From Mortierella sp. BCC40632 (lineage: Eukaryota; Mortierellomycota; Mortierellomycetes; Mortierellales; Mortierellaceae): DNA of 64,000 nt. Under the pieces are notes generated by a model. That model had not been told where the DNA came from, did not search any database, and saw only the letters and a program-made list of their open reading frames with translations. A program made the translations under genes and the position numbers. The stretch lies in contig WAEK01000010.1 of assembly GCA_011634665.1 (NCBI GenBank), positions 826,001 to 890,000 on the forward strand. Direction: 5' to 3'. Shown in pieces: positions 8,440 to 17,960 of this stretch. How positions within the stretch are numbered: position 1 is the first letter of the stretch; every line of letters begins with the position of its first letter.

Positions 8440-8780
8440 GCAAAAGAAACTTTGTCAAATCTGGCAAATCGTCAAACATAACCTGAACCAAGCGGACTAG
8501 CCTGATGTCCATTTACTCATTATGTTCTTCCCAACATCAACAAGGAGCCTGCTTCTGATTTCCATGACGCCTCTGGCTGGCATAAAATCAAGCTGTTCGT
8601 TGATTCAGAGGAAGATATCAAAACACCTCCCGCTAGTACTCTCCGACTCCACTTCAATGCTATTATGCTTGCCTGCAAAACCCATACACCAAAGTACTAC
8701 ACAGCAGCTGTCATTCAAGGACCTTGGAGATCTATGACATCCATTTTGACCGACAGGCTATGAGTTTTCGGAGAACTCCT
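8440..8780 (+). repeat. Decayed dispersed repeat with former coding sequence, copy 1
   Basis: A frame from about 8530 reads PNINKEPASDFHDASGWHKI and continues for about 70 codons to a stop near 8757. The same nucleotide block, more degraded, lies at about 24343-24610. Both have a stop just upstream of the open part, so neither is a whole gene. The protein family was not recognised. The Fanzor element is inserted at the right edge of this copy. Confidence 0.5.
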
Positions 8781-8781
8781 A

Positions 8782-8794
8782 TCCCTTAAACCGT
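8782..8794 (+). repeat. Left terminal inverted repeat of Fanzor element
   Basis: TCCCTTAAACCGT, preceded by TA. It is the exact inverse of the right end. The adjoining GTAAGGTTTA partly inverts the terminal TTAAACC, giving a small local palindrome. Confidence 0.85.
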
Positions 8795-8990
8795 AAGGTT
8801 TAATAGGCAAATTTGCCAGTCAAAAAATGGGAGTGAAAGAGTGAAAGAGAGGGTTAGCATCCACTTTGGTTATGTTTGAGTTGGCCTGGCTTGCTTCTCC
8901 GTGGATTGCTCATGAATTGCTCATGAATTGCTTACCAATACGGGATAATTATTGTCGAGCTCCACACTCGACTTGGGAAGCAGAGCGCTC
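8795..8990 (-). ncRNA. Candidate guide (omega) RNA region 3' of the Fanzor gene
   Basis: Fanzor guide RNAs are known to derive from the 3' end of the locus and run to the element end. This 196-bp stretch fits that position, between the stop codon and the left TIR. It holds a perfect 6-bp hairpin with a 7-nt loop (8954-8972, GTCGAG/CTCGAC) and a tandem ATTGCTCATGA repeat near 8917-8938. The RNA itself is inferred; there is no expression evidence. Confidence 0.35.
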
Positions 8991-10818
8991 CTAGTTGGTT
9001 ATCCGGCGCAAGAACCATGGCCATTCCATCTTGGACAACCAGTGGTGTACCGCCATTGCCATGTTGTGAGCCCCATTGACATCACGATCACGGCTTGTAT
9101 CATGCTGGACCCCTCCTCCTGCCTTGCATACAAGGTTTCTTTTCATCTCCTCTGTTTTCAAACCACAGAGGCAGCATCGTTGCGAAGTCTTGAACTCGTC
9201 AACCAGGCAGACTATGATTCCCATCCCTTGTGCCTGTCATCCACAAATAAAACGATTAAATCGTTAGCTACTCTCCTCACTTTGGTCTACACAATTGCTC
9301 ATATTAATATTCATTACCATCTGGCACAGCCTCTCCAACACAACGTATGTCCCACTCGTTCCACCGTTCAATGGTTTGAATACTCCATCCCCAATCGCGA
9401 GGATAACCTGTCGCTTCGATGGTAAACTGGGCTTAGGCAGAGGCTCTTTCATATCTTCTGCAGGTTCGAGATTGGCAATGCTGACTGCTGTCCGCAAAAT
9501 ATGCGAGAGTCGCTGGTCGATCTCTGCAGCATGTTCTTGTTGTTTTCGAAACTTGAGCGTCTTGTACGCCATCGATCCATAGAAAGATCCAAGCGATCTG
9601 TCCGCATTGAGCTTCGACAGGACATGATCTTCCGTGCTCTTGGAGAGCTGTTTCAGTCGAGTCTCCTCAGTAGCCTCACCTCCAGGGTCGCCAATCGTTA
9701 CTGGGACTATCGTTTGCTCTACTGCATTGATCCCGTCTGTCTTCTTGGCGAGTTGCATTAGGTGTCTCATCCCCTGTGTGTGCCAGTTGTATGTCCCTCT
9801 GGAAAGGTGGTGGTTGGAAGCTTGGTTGGGTCGTGCACTGTCAACGATCACTGCTGTGACAAGCTCCGCTATCCCTGGGTCAACCCCAATCACCACGTAG
9901 CTATCGCCAACAAGCTGTAAAACAGTCTCTTTGTTCGCAAAGAGCTCTGTCGCATACCGGATAGTGGTTCGACCTACGTTCAGAGGATGAGCACTCGCGT
10001 TGGCTGCCTCGGCTTTGATCTTGGGCCTTTGAAACTTTTCAGTCTTTGGATCTAGAGGACGGTACGCAAGCAGCCGCAACTGATATCCGTCCGTTACCAT
10101 CGTCCCTCGCAAGCAGTATTTCTGCTGTGGAGAAATCGCTGCTGGCATGCTTTCTTTCTCGATCTGGCAACTTTTGGTTTTCTTCAGAATTGCAATCCTC
10201 TCCTTTGTCATCTCGACAAATTGAGTCTTTAGTTGACCATATCGTCTCTTGGCTTCACTCTCGTCGCCCTGAGCTACTGCCGTCGAGCTTTCTGCTCTTT
10301 TTCGCCCTGGCAATCTCTGGGCTGCCTCCTCGAGCTCCTCTTCCGCCATTGCAAAAGAGTCGAAAAGACTCGGAACTTGAGACGATGAGGGCCTCCCAAC
10401 ACAGGTAGTCTTGTCGTAATTGCTTCTTTGTCTCCCACCGACAAAAAGCCTGTAGTAGATCTCGCCTGGATGATTGGATGCCTTCGAAGATCCCTCTCTC
10501 TGGGAGCTGACTCCTAACAGGTCCTTGATTATTCCTTGTTCCACTTTGTGCTCCAAATCCTGTCGAAAAATAGCGCGGACAAAATACTGTTCAGAAATGG
10601 TGAGAAATGACGTTGACTCTTTTGCAGTAGGAGCTAGTTCTAGTCGGTCCTTGATGGGCAGCTGGAAGTTGAGGACTGTGAAGACCTCGGCCTGGCTGAA
10701 CGCCTCTGATATTCCTTTTTCCTCTACTGCTGCCAGCATGGCTGCTCCCTCTGTCGATTGTGCCCATCCTGGGTTCAGCCGACGCACCTAGAATATTATG
10801 TTGAGTTAACAACTATTT

Positions 10819-10861
<43 letters not shown>

Positions 10862-13279
10862 ATGAACAACTTACTCGTTTGATCAACTCGGGGACAAACT
10901 CGACAAACGTTTTGCACAACATACTGTACAGATTCCGGCCAGAACTCTCAAAAAAACACTGTGGTACTTGTCCTTGTAGGTGCGACTGGAGCCGATCTCG
11001 TTGTTGTTTGAAATTGGGGCCTGCACTCTTTGCAAAGTCGTCTACTACCTCCCTGGCTAGACTCATGCCAACAGTCCCTCGCTTTGTTCTGTCTTCATAG
11101 TATAGCAGCATTAAGAGCTGGCGGCAAAAATCCTCCGTATCTAGGATCTGTAACTTTTTTCTGCCATCCTCTTGACTCCCATTCACAGAGTACATGGCTG
11201 CAACAGTCTTGGCAGCAAACCACCGTACGATGTACAGTCCAATTTTTGTCGCCTCCGAGTGGCATTTGGCGAGTGCTAGCACCGTGTCGGCAATATACTT
11301 GGCAGCTCCACTGCGCTCCTCTTTGGTTTTTGAAGGCAACCTCTCCTCCAAAACTGACGCTACTCGCCACAGAATCAGCTCGCGCTTCTGGGTAATACAG
11401 TCAGAAGTTGAGTCCAATGCTTGGTCAATTAGATTGCCAGGCGATACTCTGTTGGATGATCCTGTTCCCATTACGCTTCCTGTTCCTAGAGCCGTTTGAA
11501 CTGCAAGCCTTGATGCCTTTGCTCTCGCCAGCTTTTTGCATTGTCGTTTCGGTGGAGGATCTGGTGGTGCGTTTGCCTTTTTTGCTTCACTTGCTGATGC
11601 TCCTCTCTTGATACCTTGCCTACATTTGGATCAATCGAAAAAATATCAGTTCTCGCATCCTTTATTTTTTAATTACATCAATCCAACCTGCAAAGTCGCA
11701 TACACCTTGCCTTTTGAGAATCTGCTTGTCAGAGTCGAGTCGTTCGCCCACAGGGCACTCTTGTTGTTGTATTTTCAACCCCTTGGCCTTGTCTTTTGTG
11801 TGCTCGATGTTCCCTTGGGCCGTCTCGCCAGCAACACTTGGGTCGGAAACCTCCTCATCCTCTTCCTCATCGTGAGATCTTGGGAAATTTTCGATTAACC
11901 CCATACCTCGAGGTTGAACAAGCTTCAAACTCGGCTTTGTTTGTCCCTTGACCAGTCGTTTCGTAGATCCAGGTCCACGCCATGTCGGCCCAGCGTCTTC
12001 ATTTCGCTGTTCATCAGCAAGCAAAAATGAAAAGGGCGCTCTAGGCAATGGTTCTAAACCTAGATGACATTTTTAAAAGAAAAAAAAAATATTTTACAAG
12101 TACCATTAGATATAAATCCCTGCAGCGTCGTAGGACTAAGGAGTCAAGTATCGAAAAAAAAAAAACTCAGTCTTACTTCGTGCTTTTAGACTTTTCTTGC
12201 CTAATCTGAAAGTTGAGTCTGGAAAGCTCCTCGGGGAATCTCTTTGCGGCAGCCAAGACTAGGTCCAACAGGCTGCTTGTCTCGGAAGGCGTGGCTGGGA
12301 GCTTGAGAGGCGTCTCTTCCGCGTCGAGAAAGATCTTGGCCGCGGCATCAAATTTATGCGGATCTGCATCGTGGCTAGTCGTGTATCCCGCCAGCAGCGC
12401 ACGTGCAGTCCTTTGGCCTGCTGGTGAGCGGTTCCACAGCTTCACAGGAATATTCTGGTTCTTATTGATACCAAATCCTTTGAGGTTGTTACAGTAATCA
12501 TTCCCTGAGGTAATGGCCATCGTCTGCCATACCCCAAAGTCAGGAACCCCTAGTTTCTCTAGGGCGTGGTCGTCGATTGTATAAAGATAGAATGTAGACC
12601 TGTTGTTGTAGCCTTGCCTGAGTACATGGACGTTAGGGATGAACAGCATGTCACTATCAGTGGTCGCGACATAGATCCGTTGGCTGCTCTCCATTGCTTC
12701 GTGTCTAATACAGTTGTCGGCCTCGCCAGAGCAGACGTGAGCATGACGACCAAGAGCAACAAGGTCTTTGGCAAGCCTGTGCCGTGTGTCCATGCTGATC
12801 TCCATTGCACCTCTCCAGGACACCATCATCCTCTTGAACGCCCGGAGTAGGCGTCGGCGCAAGTTGCGCGCCGAGCGAAGGCCGCCTTCCGGGTACTCTT
12901 GTCCAGGCTGGATTGCCGCATTGAATGCGGACAGTGAGCTGGAGCACTGGTGACGGCTATCCTCCTCTCTCTTGGAGCGATATTTCCGGGCGACGGCCTT
13001 TTCGCTGGTGGGGAGTCCGTCGATGTGAATAATCGCATCCTTTGAAAAAACGATATCCAGCTTCTTATTGAGCGCCTTGGCGACCCAACCTGGTTCTTTG
13101 TCTGGCTTCTTGCCTCTTGAAGACGAGCGTGGTGTGTGGAACCAAAATAGAATGGCAAGGATGTAGTGAAAAAACAAGGAGAAGAGGTCGATATGAACAG
13201 ACGGGAACTCTTTCGGATCTACAGAAGATCGTGGGACGCCTGCGTCCGTAACTTTTTTCCAGGCCTGTTTAACTCCCAT
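8991..13279 (-). CDS. XPG/FEN1-like nuclease fused to Fanzor (TnpB-like) RNA-guided nuclease
   Basis: Six exons join in phase: 13279-12177, 12135-12104, 12059-11706, 11614-10875, 10787-9318 and 9233-8991, giving about 1313 residues. The start ATG has a good context (TGACCATGG). Residues 1-271 form an XPG/FEN1 flap nuclease domain: MGVKQAWKK, D31, D87 in HIDG, E186 and D188 in SGEAD, D208 and D210 in TTDSD, D261 in SGNDY, all seven metal-binding acids at FEN1-like spacing. Residues about 280-960 contain no domain I recognise. The C-terminus is Fanzor: TDGYQLRLL, RuvC-I D1046 in GVDPG, AIGDGVF, E1246 in VDEFKTS, a CxxC half of a zinc ribbon, and RuvC-III D1284 in RDVNGA. The other half of the ribbon looks degenerate. 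The product is probably nuclear, cutting DNA under guidance of an RNA, as known for Fanzors; the role of the flap nuclease is unknown. The two shortest introns (41 and 44 bp) are the least certain joins. Confidence 0.75.
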
Positions 13280-13827
13280 GGTCAGAAGTGAATAAAAGTG
13301 AACTTTCGAATGTGTGAGGAAAAGTGCCAGAGAAGTGGATAGAAAGTCGATTACCCTGTAACGAAAAAAACGAAAAAAGAAAAAAGATAAAAGATAAATA
13401 AAAAGATAAAAAAAAGGACGTCGGGAGCTCGAAGTATCAAAGCCAAATTCCGCCCCATCCACTCTCTTGCACTCTCTTACGCATCAGTGTCTATCCCGTG
13501 CTTTAGCGATTCATCAGATACCTCCATCAAAAAAAGTCGTTTGTCCTCTCTCTTTATTAACGGCGACTCTTCAGCCATAGCAAGCAAAGCGAGCGACGGC
13601 TGTTAGCACGGACCACAGGTGTGATCTCAGATGGATGAGTAGACCCATTGGTTCCATGATGGTGCATTCTACCTAATGCCGGCTCGATTCTGATGGTAGA
13701 TGTCAGCACATAGTTTGATCTGCTAGTTTCTGACCAAAGAGAAGGGGGGTTGTGGTTTAAAAGACTTTCGAGAAAAAGGCTGGAAACCTCCAAAATTTCT
13801 AAGCTAGATGGCATTTTTGCCTGTCTA
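13280..13827. other. 5' region of Fanzor element
   Basis: This should hold the promoter and leader of the fusion gene. An 85-codon minus-strand frame at 13557-13814 has no recognised homologue and no clear splice link to the main gene. No TATA box is convincing. Confidence 0.4.
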
Positions 13828-13840
13828 ACGGTTTAAGGGA
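13828..13840 (-). repeat. Right terminal inverted repeat of Fanzor element
   Basis: ACGGTTTAAGGGA followed by TA. It pairs exactly with the left end at 8782-8794. Confidence 0.85.
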
Positions 13841-13842
13841 TA

Positions 13843-14918: not shown

Positions 14919-16202
14919 ATGCCCTTCAAGTCTAGTCGCCAGGAAACTCTCGCTGATATGGATCTCCTTGTAACTCTTTGTTGGCTGAATGATGATGACG
15001 AGCTTGCTCTAGAGGCGGCCGAGGTGTCACATTTGATATCGTCCTACCGATACATTCACCGAGGCCCAAAGCGATGTCGGGTCTCATATTACTTTTCTAC
15101 AGAGTTTTCTGAGCAGTCTGATAAAGACTTTCGTGCAATGTTCAGGACAACGAAGGAGGGCTTTCGGGGTGTCTTGGATCTCATCAAAGCCAATCCGATT
15201 TTTTTTAACAATTCGACATGTCCTCAAGCCGACCCTGCTATTCAACTTGCGGTTACTCTGGCAAGACTTGGAGGCTATGGAAATGCCGGAAGTGTTTCCA
15301 AAATCCAATCTCATTTTCAACTTGGGGCTGGGTCTGTTAATGTCTTCACCAAACGTGTGATCACGGCGCTCCTTGATGTACATGCGGATTGGATTTCGTG
15401 GCCGAACCGTAGTCGTCGAACAGAGATAGGACACGTCATGCGTGAAGAAGGCTTCCCTGGATGTGTCGGTTTCATCGACGGGACAACAATCAGTTTATCC
15501 CAAAAACCAGCTCGCGATGGCGAGGTATACTACGATAGAAAAAAACGGTAAGCGCATGTAACAGGCTTCGAAACAACACTTTGGTGATTGACAACTTACC
15601 TACTCGAGTAAATCAGATATTCTGTTACCATGCAGGTTGTCTGTGATGTTGACAAACGGATAATAGGCTACCATGTTGGCTACCCTGGATCATGCGCTGA
15701 CTCCACAGTGTTCAAGAAGATGGCGCTTTACAAAAATCCGAAATCTTACTTCTCACCAGGAGAGTATCTCCTTGCTGATTCTGCGTACGCTGTGTCCCAT
15801 GCATGCATCCCACCGTACAAAGCACCTGCCGCGAACTTGCCAGAGAATGCCAACTTCAATTACTGCCATTCCAAGTCTCGGGTCCGAGTCGAGCATTGTA
15901 TTGGCATCCTCAAGTCTCGCTGGTTCTCATTAAGGGAGATAAGGCAACAGCTGCGATCAAAGAAAGAGATGAACATTGCCACAAGTTGGGTTGCGGCATG
16001 TTGTATTCTTCACAACATGCTGGCAAACCTCGGTGACGCTTGGTCAGACATGTATTTGTCCGAAGGGGATGAAGTCGAACAGATGCCTCCAGACAGCACG
16101 TCTATTGCAGCAGCTGTGACCTTTCGAGAGACTTTGAAAAAGGTTACCATTGAAACAAATTTAAATCGAGGAGTTCTACCCATTGGCCAGAAATCCTTTT
16201 AG
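14919..16202 (+). CDS. PIF/Harbinger transposase (DDE_Tnp_4)
   Basis: Two exons, 14919-15547 and 15617-16202, joined by a 69-bp GT-AG intron inside the codon after DRKK, encode 404 residues. It catalyses cut-and-paste transposition in the nucleus. Visible hallmarks are GFIDGTTI (first catalytic Asp), YPGSCADSTVF, LLADSAYAV (second Asp) and RVRVEHCIGILKSRWF (Glu), followed by CCILHNML, all in the expected order and at full family length. There are no stops or frameshifts, so it may be active. The start chosen is the ATG at 14919, just after a long poly-T tract; an ATG further up would only add homopolymer-derived Phe. Its 3' end overlaps the convergent accessory gene by 27 bp. Confidence 0.9.
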
Positions 16203-17742
16203 ATAATCTATCAGCTCTTTGGTTTTCTCAATATCTTGCCCTTGTTTCAAAACCTGTCCCACGAGCTCGTATTTGAGCTTCTTTTCCTCCAATGCAAGTC
16301 TCTTCTCTTCTAATTCAAACTTCTTATCCTCGTTCTTCGTTTGATGTTCATACTTTTTCTCTTCCAATGCAATCTTTCTCTCCTCGCCTTCCGCATCTCG
16401 TTCATGCTTCTTTTCTTCCAGCGCCAATCTCTTTTCCTCGATCTCCGCTTGTTGTTTGGTAACCGAGTGAATCTTTTCGGCCCTGTCATACTCAAACTTA
16501 AGCTTTGCCTTTTCAGTCTCGCTCCTCATCTTCTCTGAAGATTCCATCGCCTCTAGTTTCTTGACTTCTAGTGCTTCTAGCTCTATTGTAAGCTTTGTCA
16601 GTGAAAGGTTGAATGTGCGTGAATATCCAATACCACAAAAGATCTAGAGCAACTTACTCTCTGACCTAAGCGCATTCGACTCGAGAATAGCTGAGGCAAC
16701 GGTAGATCTCTGAGACAGGGAATTGGACGAGCCAAGACTTGGAGGTTTCTTTCGTCCATTATTGCTTTTCTTTTGCTTCTTAGTAGCCCTTTGACTGGCA
16801 ATTTGATTCTGCAACTGAGATGGTGGAGGATCATCAAGAACCTCTAAGTCGATATCCGGATTGAGATCTAGCGCTGCAGGCTCTTCCACATCATTGGCAG
16901 GTAGTGCATTGGCCGTGTGCTCTTCTACATCAAGGTTCTCCACATGTGCCGTCCACTCCTCCACAAAACTATATTCATCCTCCTCATCTGCATCCTGAAT
17001 GAGACGTCGCTCCTTGTAGCGGACAATAGAACGGCTCGAGCCTTGGTTTTCTAGATCTTGGGGTTCGTTCTCATCGTCGCGATCGCTGTTCTCAGCAGCA
17101 CTAGTCTCTGAAACGTGACTCGAAATATCTTCATCGGACAGATGGTAGTGGGAGCTGGTGTCATCCAGCCGGGGCACTTGGGTAAAGGAGTCAACCTCGT
17201 CCAAAGGCGTAACATCAGCTCGCATTCCGAATGACTTGTCCATTCTCTCGAAGCATAGGCAGTTTTTTTCGAGCTTACTAAAGATTCCTCTCAATTCCTC
17301 TCAATTGATCTTCAGTTGTGACTCCAAATCCTGTTGTCTTGGACAGTTCCTTCCATTTTTTGTACACCCTTCGGTGTCGCTCAAATCGTTCCTTGAGGGA
17401 TCTTCCATTGAGGTTTAGTCGTCCTTTATTCTTTTTGTTGATGACCGTGGCCAAGGTGTCGTAAGCCTTATTAGAAGTCCGAAGTGGCAGGCCGATGGTG
17501 GTCTGTTGTGCTCCATAGACAGAAATAAAATTAGGCTTGTGCTCGAGCCAGTTAAGGATAGCCTCCAGCTCATCTCTATTCAACCGTGCTTTGCTCTTTG
17601 AAGCCTGTCTATCCACCTTTCGCTTGGTGTTGCTGTTAGAAGGGAGTGGGGAAGTTGCTGAAGGAGACTCATTGGCTTCGCTGGATGGTAGTGTTGCAGT
17701 GTTAGTCGATGCAGTGTTAGTCGATGCAGTGGTCTCATTCAT
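16176..17742 (-). pseudogene. Harbinger accessory DNA-binding protein gene, frameshifted
   Basis: Exon blocks run 17742-16658 (interrupted) and 16582-16176, with an intron at 16583-16657. The N-terminus is Ser/Thr-rich with a KRKVDRQ basic patch. Then comes a trihelix/Myb-like region (LNRDELEAILNWLEHKP to FERHRRVYKKW), an acidic middle, and a long charged coiled coil with repeated EEKRLALEEKK segments. Harbinger elements usually encode such a partner that helps the transposase bind DNA and enter the nucleus. A 10-bp tandem duplication (ATTCCTCTCA twice on the plus strand, 17284-17303) shifts the frame. Removing one unit on paper would restore DQLRGIFSKLEKN, so the copy looks recently disabled. 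Confidence 0.7.
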
Positions 17743-17960
17743 TGCAGATTAGCTGAGGAGAGGAAATGAGGATGGAGTGTGAGCAAGAAAGCGAATAGGG
17801 GTGGGAAAACGAGAGGGAGAGTGAAATAACCCACTGGTCATTTCAAATACGCAGGTTTGAAACGTCGCATTTCGAAATAAACTTTGTGCATTTGCATCTG
17901 ACGAAATCTACAAACGGATGTTATTTGAAAAATTCAAGGACCAGGTTTGAAACCCCCTAA

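Follow-up and report, generated by a model that had tools for sequence, protein, structure and literature searches.

Fanzor1 proteins are borne by DNA transposons, with fungi among their known hosts (PMC10711439, PMC3627910 and PMC11423790, in the parts of each available to us), and for the most part they are 600–700 amino acids (aa) long with a relatively conserved layout (available part of PMC11423790). Their signature, in the available sections of Yoon et al., consists of a DPG motif, a glutamate six residues ahead of the first CxxC, and RD (PMC10711439), and bacterial TnpB reportedly cuts the site that its element has left, after which recombination restores the element (available part of PMC11870625). 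The gene analysed here lies at positions 8991–13279, on the minus strand, of a 64,000-nucleotide stretch of DNA (the window) from the fungus Mortierella sp. BCC40632 (assembly GCA_011634665.1, contig WAEK01000010.1, positions 826,001 to 890,000), and fills most of a 5.06-kb mobile element. Like the Fanzor1 proteins SpuFz1, GtFz1 and PpFz1, its predicted product has DPG at RuvC-I, a glutamate six residues before CxxC, and RD, with a zinc ribbon that is one cysteine short in the window copy, and it too is transposon-borne, with defined ends and several copies in unrelated flanks; unlike them it is about 1318 aa long and begins with a putative 5'-nuclease. That one protein combines the two nucleases is, we think, highly probable. 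What Fanzors do for their host transposons is, to our knowledge, unsettled.

Joined in phase, the six exons of the gene give 1318 aa with one stop, at the terminus:

Exon 1, 12177–13279, minus strand: predicted XPG/FEN1-type 5'-nuclease domain, aa 1–367, with D31, D87, K94, R101, E186, D188, D208, D210 and D261
Intron 1, 12136–12176, minus strand: 41 bp, GT..AG, containing a stop that would terminate exon 1 alone
Exon 2, 12104–12135, minus strand: 32 nt
Intron 2, 12060–12103, minus strand: 44 bp, GT..AG
Exon 3, 11706–12059, minus strand: linker joining the two putative nucleases
Intron 3, 11603–11705, minus strand: provisional boundaries, 29 in-phase GT–AG options
Exon 4, 10875–11602, minus strand: N-terminal portion of the Fanzor half
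Intron 4, 10788–10874, minus strand: GTAAGT..CTAG
Exon 5, 9291–10787, minus strand: Fanzor half including the RuvC-I DPG (D1042)
Intron 5, 9234–9290, minus strand: GTAGAC..ACAG
Exon 6, 8991–9233, minus strand: rearranged glutamate E1251, zinc ribbon, RuvC-III D1289 and TNB domain PF07282

An earlier sequence-only reading of this DNA had proposed six exons and about 1313 residues: the exons stay in phase, while the length is 1318 aa in the present model and depends on intron 3, for which 29 phase-keeping GT–AG pairs in the scanned range give products of 1277–1329 aa (they do not include the acceptor that looks most natural, ATGTAG, which ends at window position 11620). The same reading described the 41-bp and 44-bp introns correctly as GT..AG, and the seven metal-ligand acids that it listed (D31, D87, E186, D188, D208, D210 and D261) are all present. 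Its RuvC triad is there as residues, numbered D1042, E1251 and D1289 and not 1046, 1246 and 1284, an offset that we attribute to the choice of splice sites.

The second half is supported as a Fanzor, a putative RNA-guided RuvC nuclease, as had been proposed. Exon 6 matches the TNB domain (PF07282, E value 9.9e-9, 35.7 bits vs a Pfam cut-off of 26.3), the RuvC-I motif reads D1042-P-G as in Fanzor1, and the rearranged RuvC-II glutamate stands at E1251-FKTSQR-C1258, followed by RD, in a pattern whose regular expression fits both the window copy and the copy on contig C4. A profile built from exon 6 together with five relatives had its best match in TranC/TnpB structures (E 1.9e-8), with SpuFz1, PpFz1 and GtFz1 at E 0.10–0.18, and among NCBIfam models exon 6 matched TnpB families only below their cut-offs (guided_TnpB, E 2.1e-9, 37.1 bits vs 100). 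Two points weigh against the assignment: the window zinc ribbon has three of four cysteines (1258, 1261 and 1274, with a histidine close by; the fourth is missing), and the AlphaFold model of exon 5 is too poor for use (predicted local distance difference test, pLDDT, 34.5). All four cysteines are present in the zinc ribbon of a more distant copy, from family C (see below).

For the first half, predicted fold and invariant active-site residues together support a 5'-nuclease of the FEN1/EXO1/XPG type, with putative nuclease activity; here too the earlier proposal holds up. Foldseek places the predicted structure of exon 1 in the FEN1/EXO1/XPG superfamily fold, with 42 matches at E≤0.001 and no exoribonuclease among them. 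Five divergent groups, down to 21% identity, show no variation in the seven acids, K94 or R101; the roles of these residues, including those of a lysine and an arginine at +7 and +14 relative to the second acid, are assigned from FEN1 and are presumably the same. The window half thus has the predicted fold, the seven acids and the K and R spacing in common with the FEN1/EXO1/XPG(Rad2)/GEN1 superfamily, from which it differs in belonging to a transposon protein; it is 21–30% identical to distant relatives in the genome, and 10–18% identical to the members of solved structure among the matches listed at E≤0.001. Against the assignment stand the moderate quality of the exon 1 model (mean pLDDT 62.1, predicted template modelling score 0.59) and the absence of any Pfam match to exon 1 at E≤1. 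Below their cut-offs, relatives of the half match XPG_I_2 (E 4.9e-4, L032, the family C copy on C4) or XPG_I and XPG_N (0.033 and 0.06, L085), and the XPG_I cut-off is passed by two genomic XPG-like loci without a Fanzor; a profile of the half searched against the PDB found Exo1 best (E 0.26). Across the genome PF00867 has six matches, none inside the window, and PF12813 has two, neither at an XPG–Fanzor locus. The N-terminal part of L085 also matches the poxvirus G5/FEN1-like family PF04599 (E 3.3e-4, below cut-off), which differs in showing no fusion to an RNA-guided nuclease in the sequences seen here. One further XPG-like gene, L034 (C27:227181–228068), has the seven acids complete, and the downstream sequence seen contains no Fanzor; around residues 262–296 of this query the last 24–35 residues match many scattered short loci, as if the open reading frame (ORF) enters a dispersed repeat.

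The XPG–Fanzor arrangement is common, not universal, in the 49.9-Mb assembly that contains the window (C10:826001–890000; copies are named below by contig). Twenty copies have both halves, in families A (seven, including the window), B (nine) and C (four), and order and strand are the same in 20/20. XPG-like loci were collected with four queries and TNB loci with one profile, which gave at least 48. At 31 of the 48 TNB loci listed, an XPG-like match is found on the same strand no more than 5 kb upstream, compared to 0.17 expected under uniform placement, and the spacing is 2.5–3.3 kb in 28 of these 31; among the same loci none has an XPG-like match on the opposite strand and three have one downstream. 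This count omitted short matches to only residues ~262–296 of the L034 query, and neighbouring fragments were merged by hand. Further Fanzor-like loci are linked to an XPG-like match in 12 of 19 cases, and of 70 XPG-like loci, 41 are followed downstream by a Fanzor-like one.

Several observations weigh against a fixed association. Members of one family are not independent in these figures, and two of the 31 links (C1:558958 and C7:2774957) belong to a Fanzor invaded by a B element, leaving 29. No upstream XPG was detected at 17 of the 48 TNB loci listed, 29 of the 70 XPG-like loci lack a downstream Fanzor-like locus, and for fragmentary XPG matches related to families A–C a downstream Fanzor-like match is missing in at least five cases (C9:939864, C17:260290, C5:994869, C5:254402 and C2:2903850). 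The sequence-only reading had suggested a search for the same domain order: within the host genome it is borne out by the 20 co-linear copies in three families, and not by the Fanzor-less matches. Chance neighbourhood was considered and ruled out by the number of linked TNB loci (31 of the 48 listed, or 29 without the nested cases) against that expected.

The nested cases involve two B-family copies, C7:2775447–2782581 and C1:551399–558581, which have both flanks in common and a TNB match 0.3–0.4 kb past their right ends; it appears from the sequence that a B element jumped into another Fanzor and was then duplicated. The five B-family elements with both ends located are each ~7.1 kb long. In the B-family copy on C27 the XPG half is preceded by ~2 kb of extra DNA, which includes a 306-aa ORF (L069 776–1696, minus strand) that has no Pfam match.

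We strongly infer, as the sequence-only reading did, one gene and not two, short of proof, because the exons are in phase, the linker exon is under selection, indels at the exon 1 donor cancel and family C is also in phase. At that donor, C17, C5 and C19 have each lost one base and gained four, which leaves the frame intact if splicing takes the second GTAAG of a tandem pair; C9, a broken copy, shows no such compensation. In family C, which is 30% identical, the XPG and middle parts are in phase across a 245-bp intron, and the C20 copy is open through to intron 4. Splice ends of introns 4 and 5 are alike across the aligned A and B copies, and a family C intron matches the place of intron 4. 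The alternative, that neighbouring XPG-like and Fanzor genes travel together in one element and make no joint protein, we regard as improbable: it can draw on the 29 Fanzor-less XPG-like loci, on an in-frame ATG inside exon 4 that could be a separate Fanzor start, on the lack of significant similarity between the middle regions of families A and C, and on the uncertainty of intron 3, but it leaves aside the phase that the window copy keeps and that family C keeps over an intron of another length, the purifying selection on the linker exon, and the cancelling indels. Also to be set against the single gene are the frameshifts in the middle exon of the family C copies C4 and C9 (two of the three read), the absence of the intron 3 donor GT from three aligned B copies, and the less than clear-cut introns 1 and 2 of aligned B copies. 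A run of Ts in the middle exon has another length in the C4 copy (L032/L067) than in its three sister copies, and C4 is out of frame beyond it; C9 has a separate frame break, upstream of that run.

Both halves and the linker are under purifying selection over longer divergence. Ratios of nonsynonymous to synonymous change (dN/dS) were calculated pairwise by the Nei–Gojobori method, and those for decayed B copies include neutral change. For the XPG half they are 0.24 (window–C17), 0.27 (window–C5), 0.16 (window–C27) and 0.15 (C17–C27); for linker exon 3, 0.18 (window–C17), 0.32 (window–C5) and 0.31 (window–C3, family B), the C27 value being unusable; for Fanzor exon 5, 0.13 (C17), 0.10 (C5, part) and 0.18 (C3); and for exon 4, 0.20 and 0.20 against the B copies C15 and C7. 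Between the window and C4 both the XPG half and exon 5 are saturated. Other values argue the opposite way: 0.52 (C17–C5) and 0.40 (C4–C20) for the XPG half, and for exon 4 2.5 (window–C5, from 9 differences) and 0.99 (window–C17, a stretch of which is out of frame in C17). So does the state of the 15 other A and B copies, nearly all of which have frame changes, stops or gaps within exons; C17 is the best of them, yet its exon 4 contains the out-of-frame stretch. Decay of the coding sequence is ruled out for the family by the longer-divergence ratios, though nearly all single copies are broken.

The element has sharply defined ends, and the gene runs from right to left within it:

Whole element, 8780–13842, minus strand: 5063 bp, with ends TATCCCTTAAACCG...
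Left (5') terminal inverted repeat, 13825–13842, minus strand: TATCCCTTAAACCGTTAG
Right (3') terminal inverted repeat, 8780–8797, minus strand: ...CTTACGGTTTAAGGGATA in gene orientation
Left subterminal palindrome-like sequence, 13810–13821, no strand: GGCAAAAATGCC
Right subterminal palindrome, 8806–8817, no strand: GGCAAATTTGCC, kept in 12 of 13 aligned right ends of families A and B
3' untranslated region to element end, 8780–8990, minus strand: candidate guide-RNA scaffold, with hairpins at 8954–8972 and 8786–8803

Alignments of family A copies stop sharply at window positions 8780 and 13842, with unrelated flanks beyond, and the 18-base end pattern has 44 genome-wide matches at up to two mismatches, compared to one for a reversed control. 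The exception to the right palindrome is C5, which differs by one base. TA stands at 7/7 right ends of family A and at 4/6 of the left ends shown, the remaining two being truncated or altered; TTAA is not adjacent to the element ends. A search for the empty site with the joined flanks of the C7 copy recovered only C7 and its duplicate C1. In the candidate scaffold, the hairpin at 8954–8972 stays paired in both family A and family B, between which a single C-G/U-A change is compensatory. Less favourable to a structured RNA are the overall fold of the 3' region, which is not significant (z -1.39; 19 of 200 shuffles fold as well), and a search of the region against Rfam, which returned nothing at gathering score.

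A 2.06-kb element at C18:869400–871458 has an end pair at one and two mismatches from window-type ends and encodes a PF13843 (DDE_Tnp_1_7) transposase, with matches of 4.4e-37 and 1.3e-18 split over two ORFs. We take PF13843 to be the piggyBac transposase family (the Pfam line itself says 'Transposase IS4'). Because its ends are nearly identical to those of the C18 element, the window element is probably moved in trans by a piggyBac-type transposase, a suggestion that is weakened by the two ORFs of the C18 copy, which may be inactive for that reason. The window element resembles this type in its terminal repeats, within one or two mismatches over 18 bases, and differs in having neither a transposase nor TTAA at its ends: the ORFs of exons 1, 4, 5 and 6 have no PF13843 match, and its other ORFs are at most 158 aa long. 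Two geneless 88-bp miniature elements, C12:1433204–1433291 (L073) and C17:1030642–1030729 (L074), have nearly the same terminal repeats. Adjoining the window element, at 14919–16202 on the plus strand, is another transposase (PF13359, DDE_Tnp_4, E 3.4e-29 for 15612–16199), which we take to be Harbinger-type; opposite-strand ORFs lie beside it at 16176–17748.

We suggest, with a probability of roughly 0.55, that the protein is a dual nuclease whose Fanzor half cuts and whose 5'-nuclease processes the ends, favouring recombinational copying of the element. A piggyBac-type transposase acting in trans would excise and move the transposase-less element; with a guide RNA made from the 3' end of the element and its flank, the Fanzor half would cleave the site vacated by excision; flaps at the cut would be trimmed, or its 5' ends resected, by the 5'-nuclease tethered to the Fanzor; and repair would be pushed towards recombination with an element-bearing copy, so that the element is restored. 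By analogy, the vacated-site model of TnpB would extend to the window protein. A single mRNA, a guide RNA, cutting, end processing and homing are what we infer for this system. Taken separately, the end-processing role is tentative, and the tasks that the sequence-only reading offered for the flap nuclease (processing of the cut strand, trimming of guide RNA, aid in copying) were speculation and are still so.

A second possibility, appreciably less probable, is that the 5'-nuclease serves transposition itself, acting on flaps, hairpins or gaps at piggyBac-type ends, and that the Fanzor mainly targets the protein to the element or donor site. The near identity of the element ends to those of the PF13843 transposase element fits this, and an added nuclease has precedent: the available part of Bao and Jurka cites P and piggyBac elements as having accessory DEDDh nucleases (PMC3627910). 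However, XPG-like domains also stand upstream of Fanzors at loci where such ends were not found, so that the nuclease goes with the Fanzor more closely than with any one transposase. Trimming of guide RNA or of an RNA–DNA hybrid, and not of DNA ends, is unlikely, given that a second nuclease would be unneeded if TnpB-type proteins process their own RNA, and that no exoribonuclease was among the 42 structural matches. Least probable is an XPG half that has lost cutting and become a DNA-binding module, which would suit its strong sequence drift and lack of a Pfam match at E≤1 but not the invariance of its seven acids, K94 and R101.

Outside this genome, the XPG profile found one protein in the protein database (P0001), a partial hypothetical protein of Lunasporangiospora selenospora (Mortierellaceae) with 69% identity over 48% of the query. 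Searched with words from its full length or from aa 1–370, the joined protein found nothing at E≤0.001 among the ~8000 top word-sharing candidates scored, and 39 pattern-matching stretches in viral contigs included no confirmed relative. In the open-access literature searched, most subscription papers lying outside its scope, no paper names both Fanzor and XPG or both Fanzor and Mortierella. A fused 5'-nuclease was not seen in the available portions of the papers of Bao and Jurka, Saito, Yoon and Xu, and PMC12719977, which mentions TnpB and a flap endonuclease, is on an unrelated topic in the part available.

It is possible, on a more speculative view, that the window protein represents an ancient and widespread mortierellomycete class of cut-and-resect enzymes: Fanzors permanently fused to their own FEN1/EXO1-type 5'-nuclease, in several transposon families, and kept by selection for element copying. 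A flap-trimmer or resector fused to a Fanzor would implicate break repair in the job of the Fanzor, and the two activities would be separable by two sets of active-site mutants. Such a protein would also be a natural model of a programmable nuclease with influence over how its cuts are repaired, with cutting and end-trimming combined in a single programmable enzyme.

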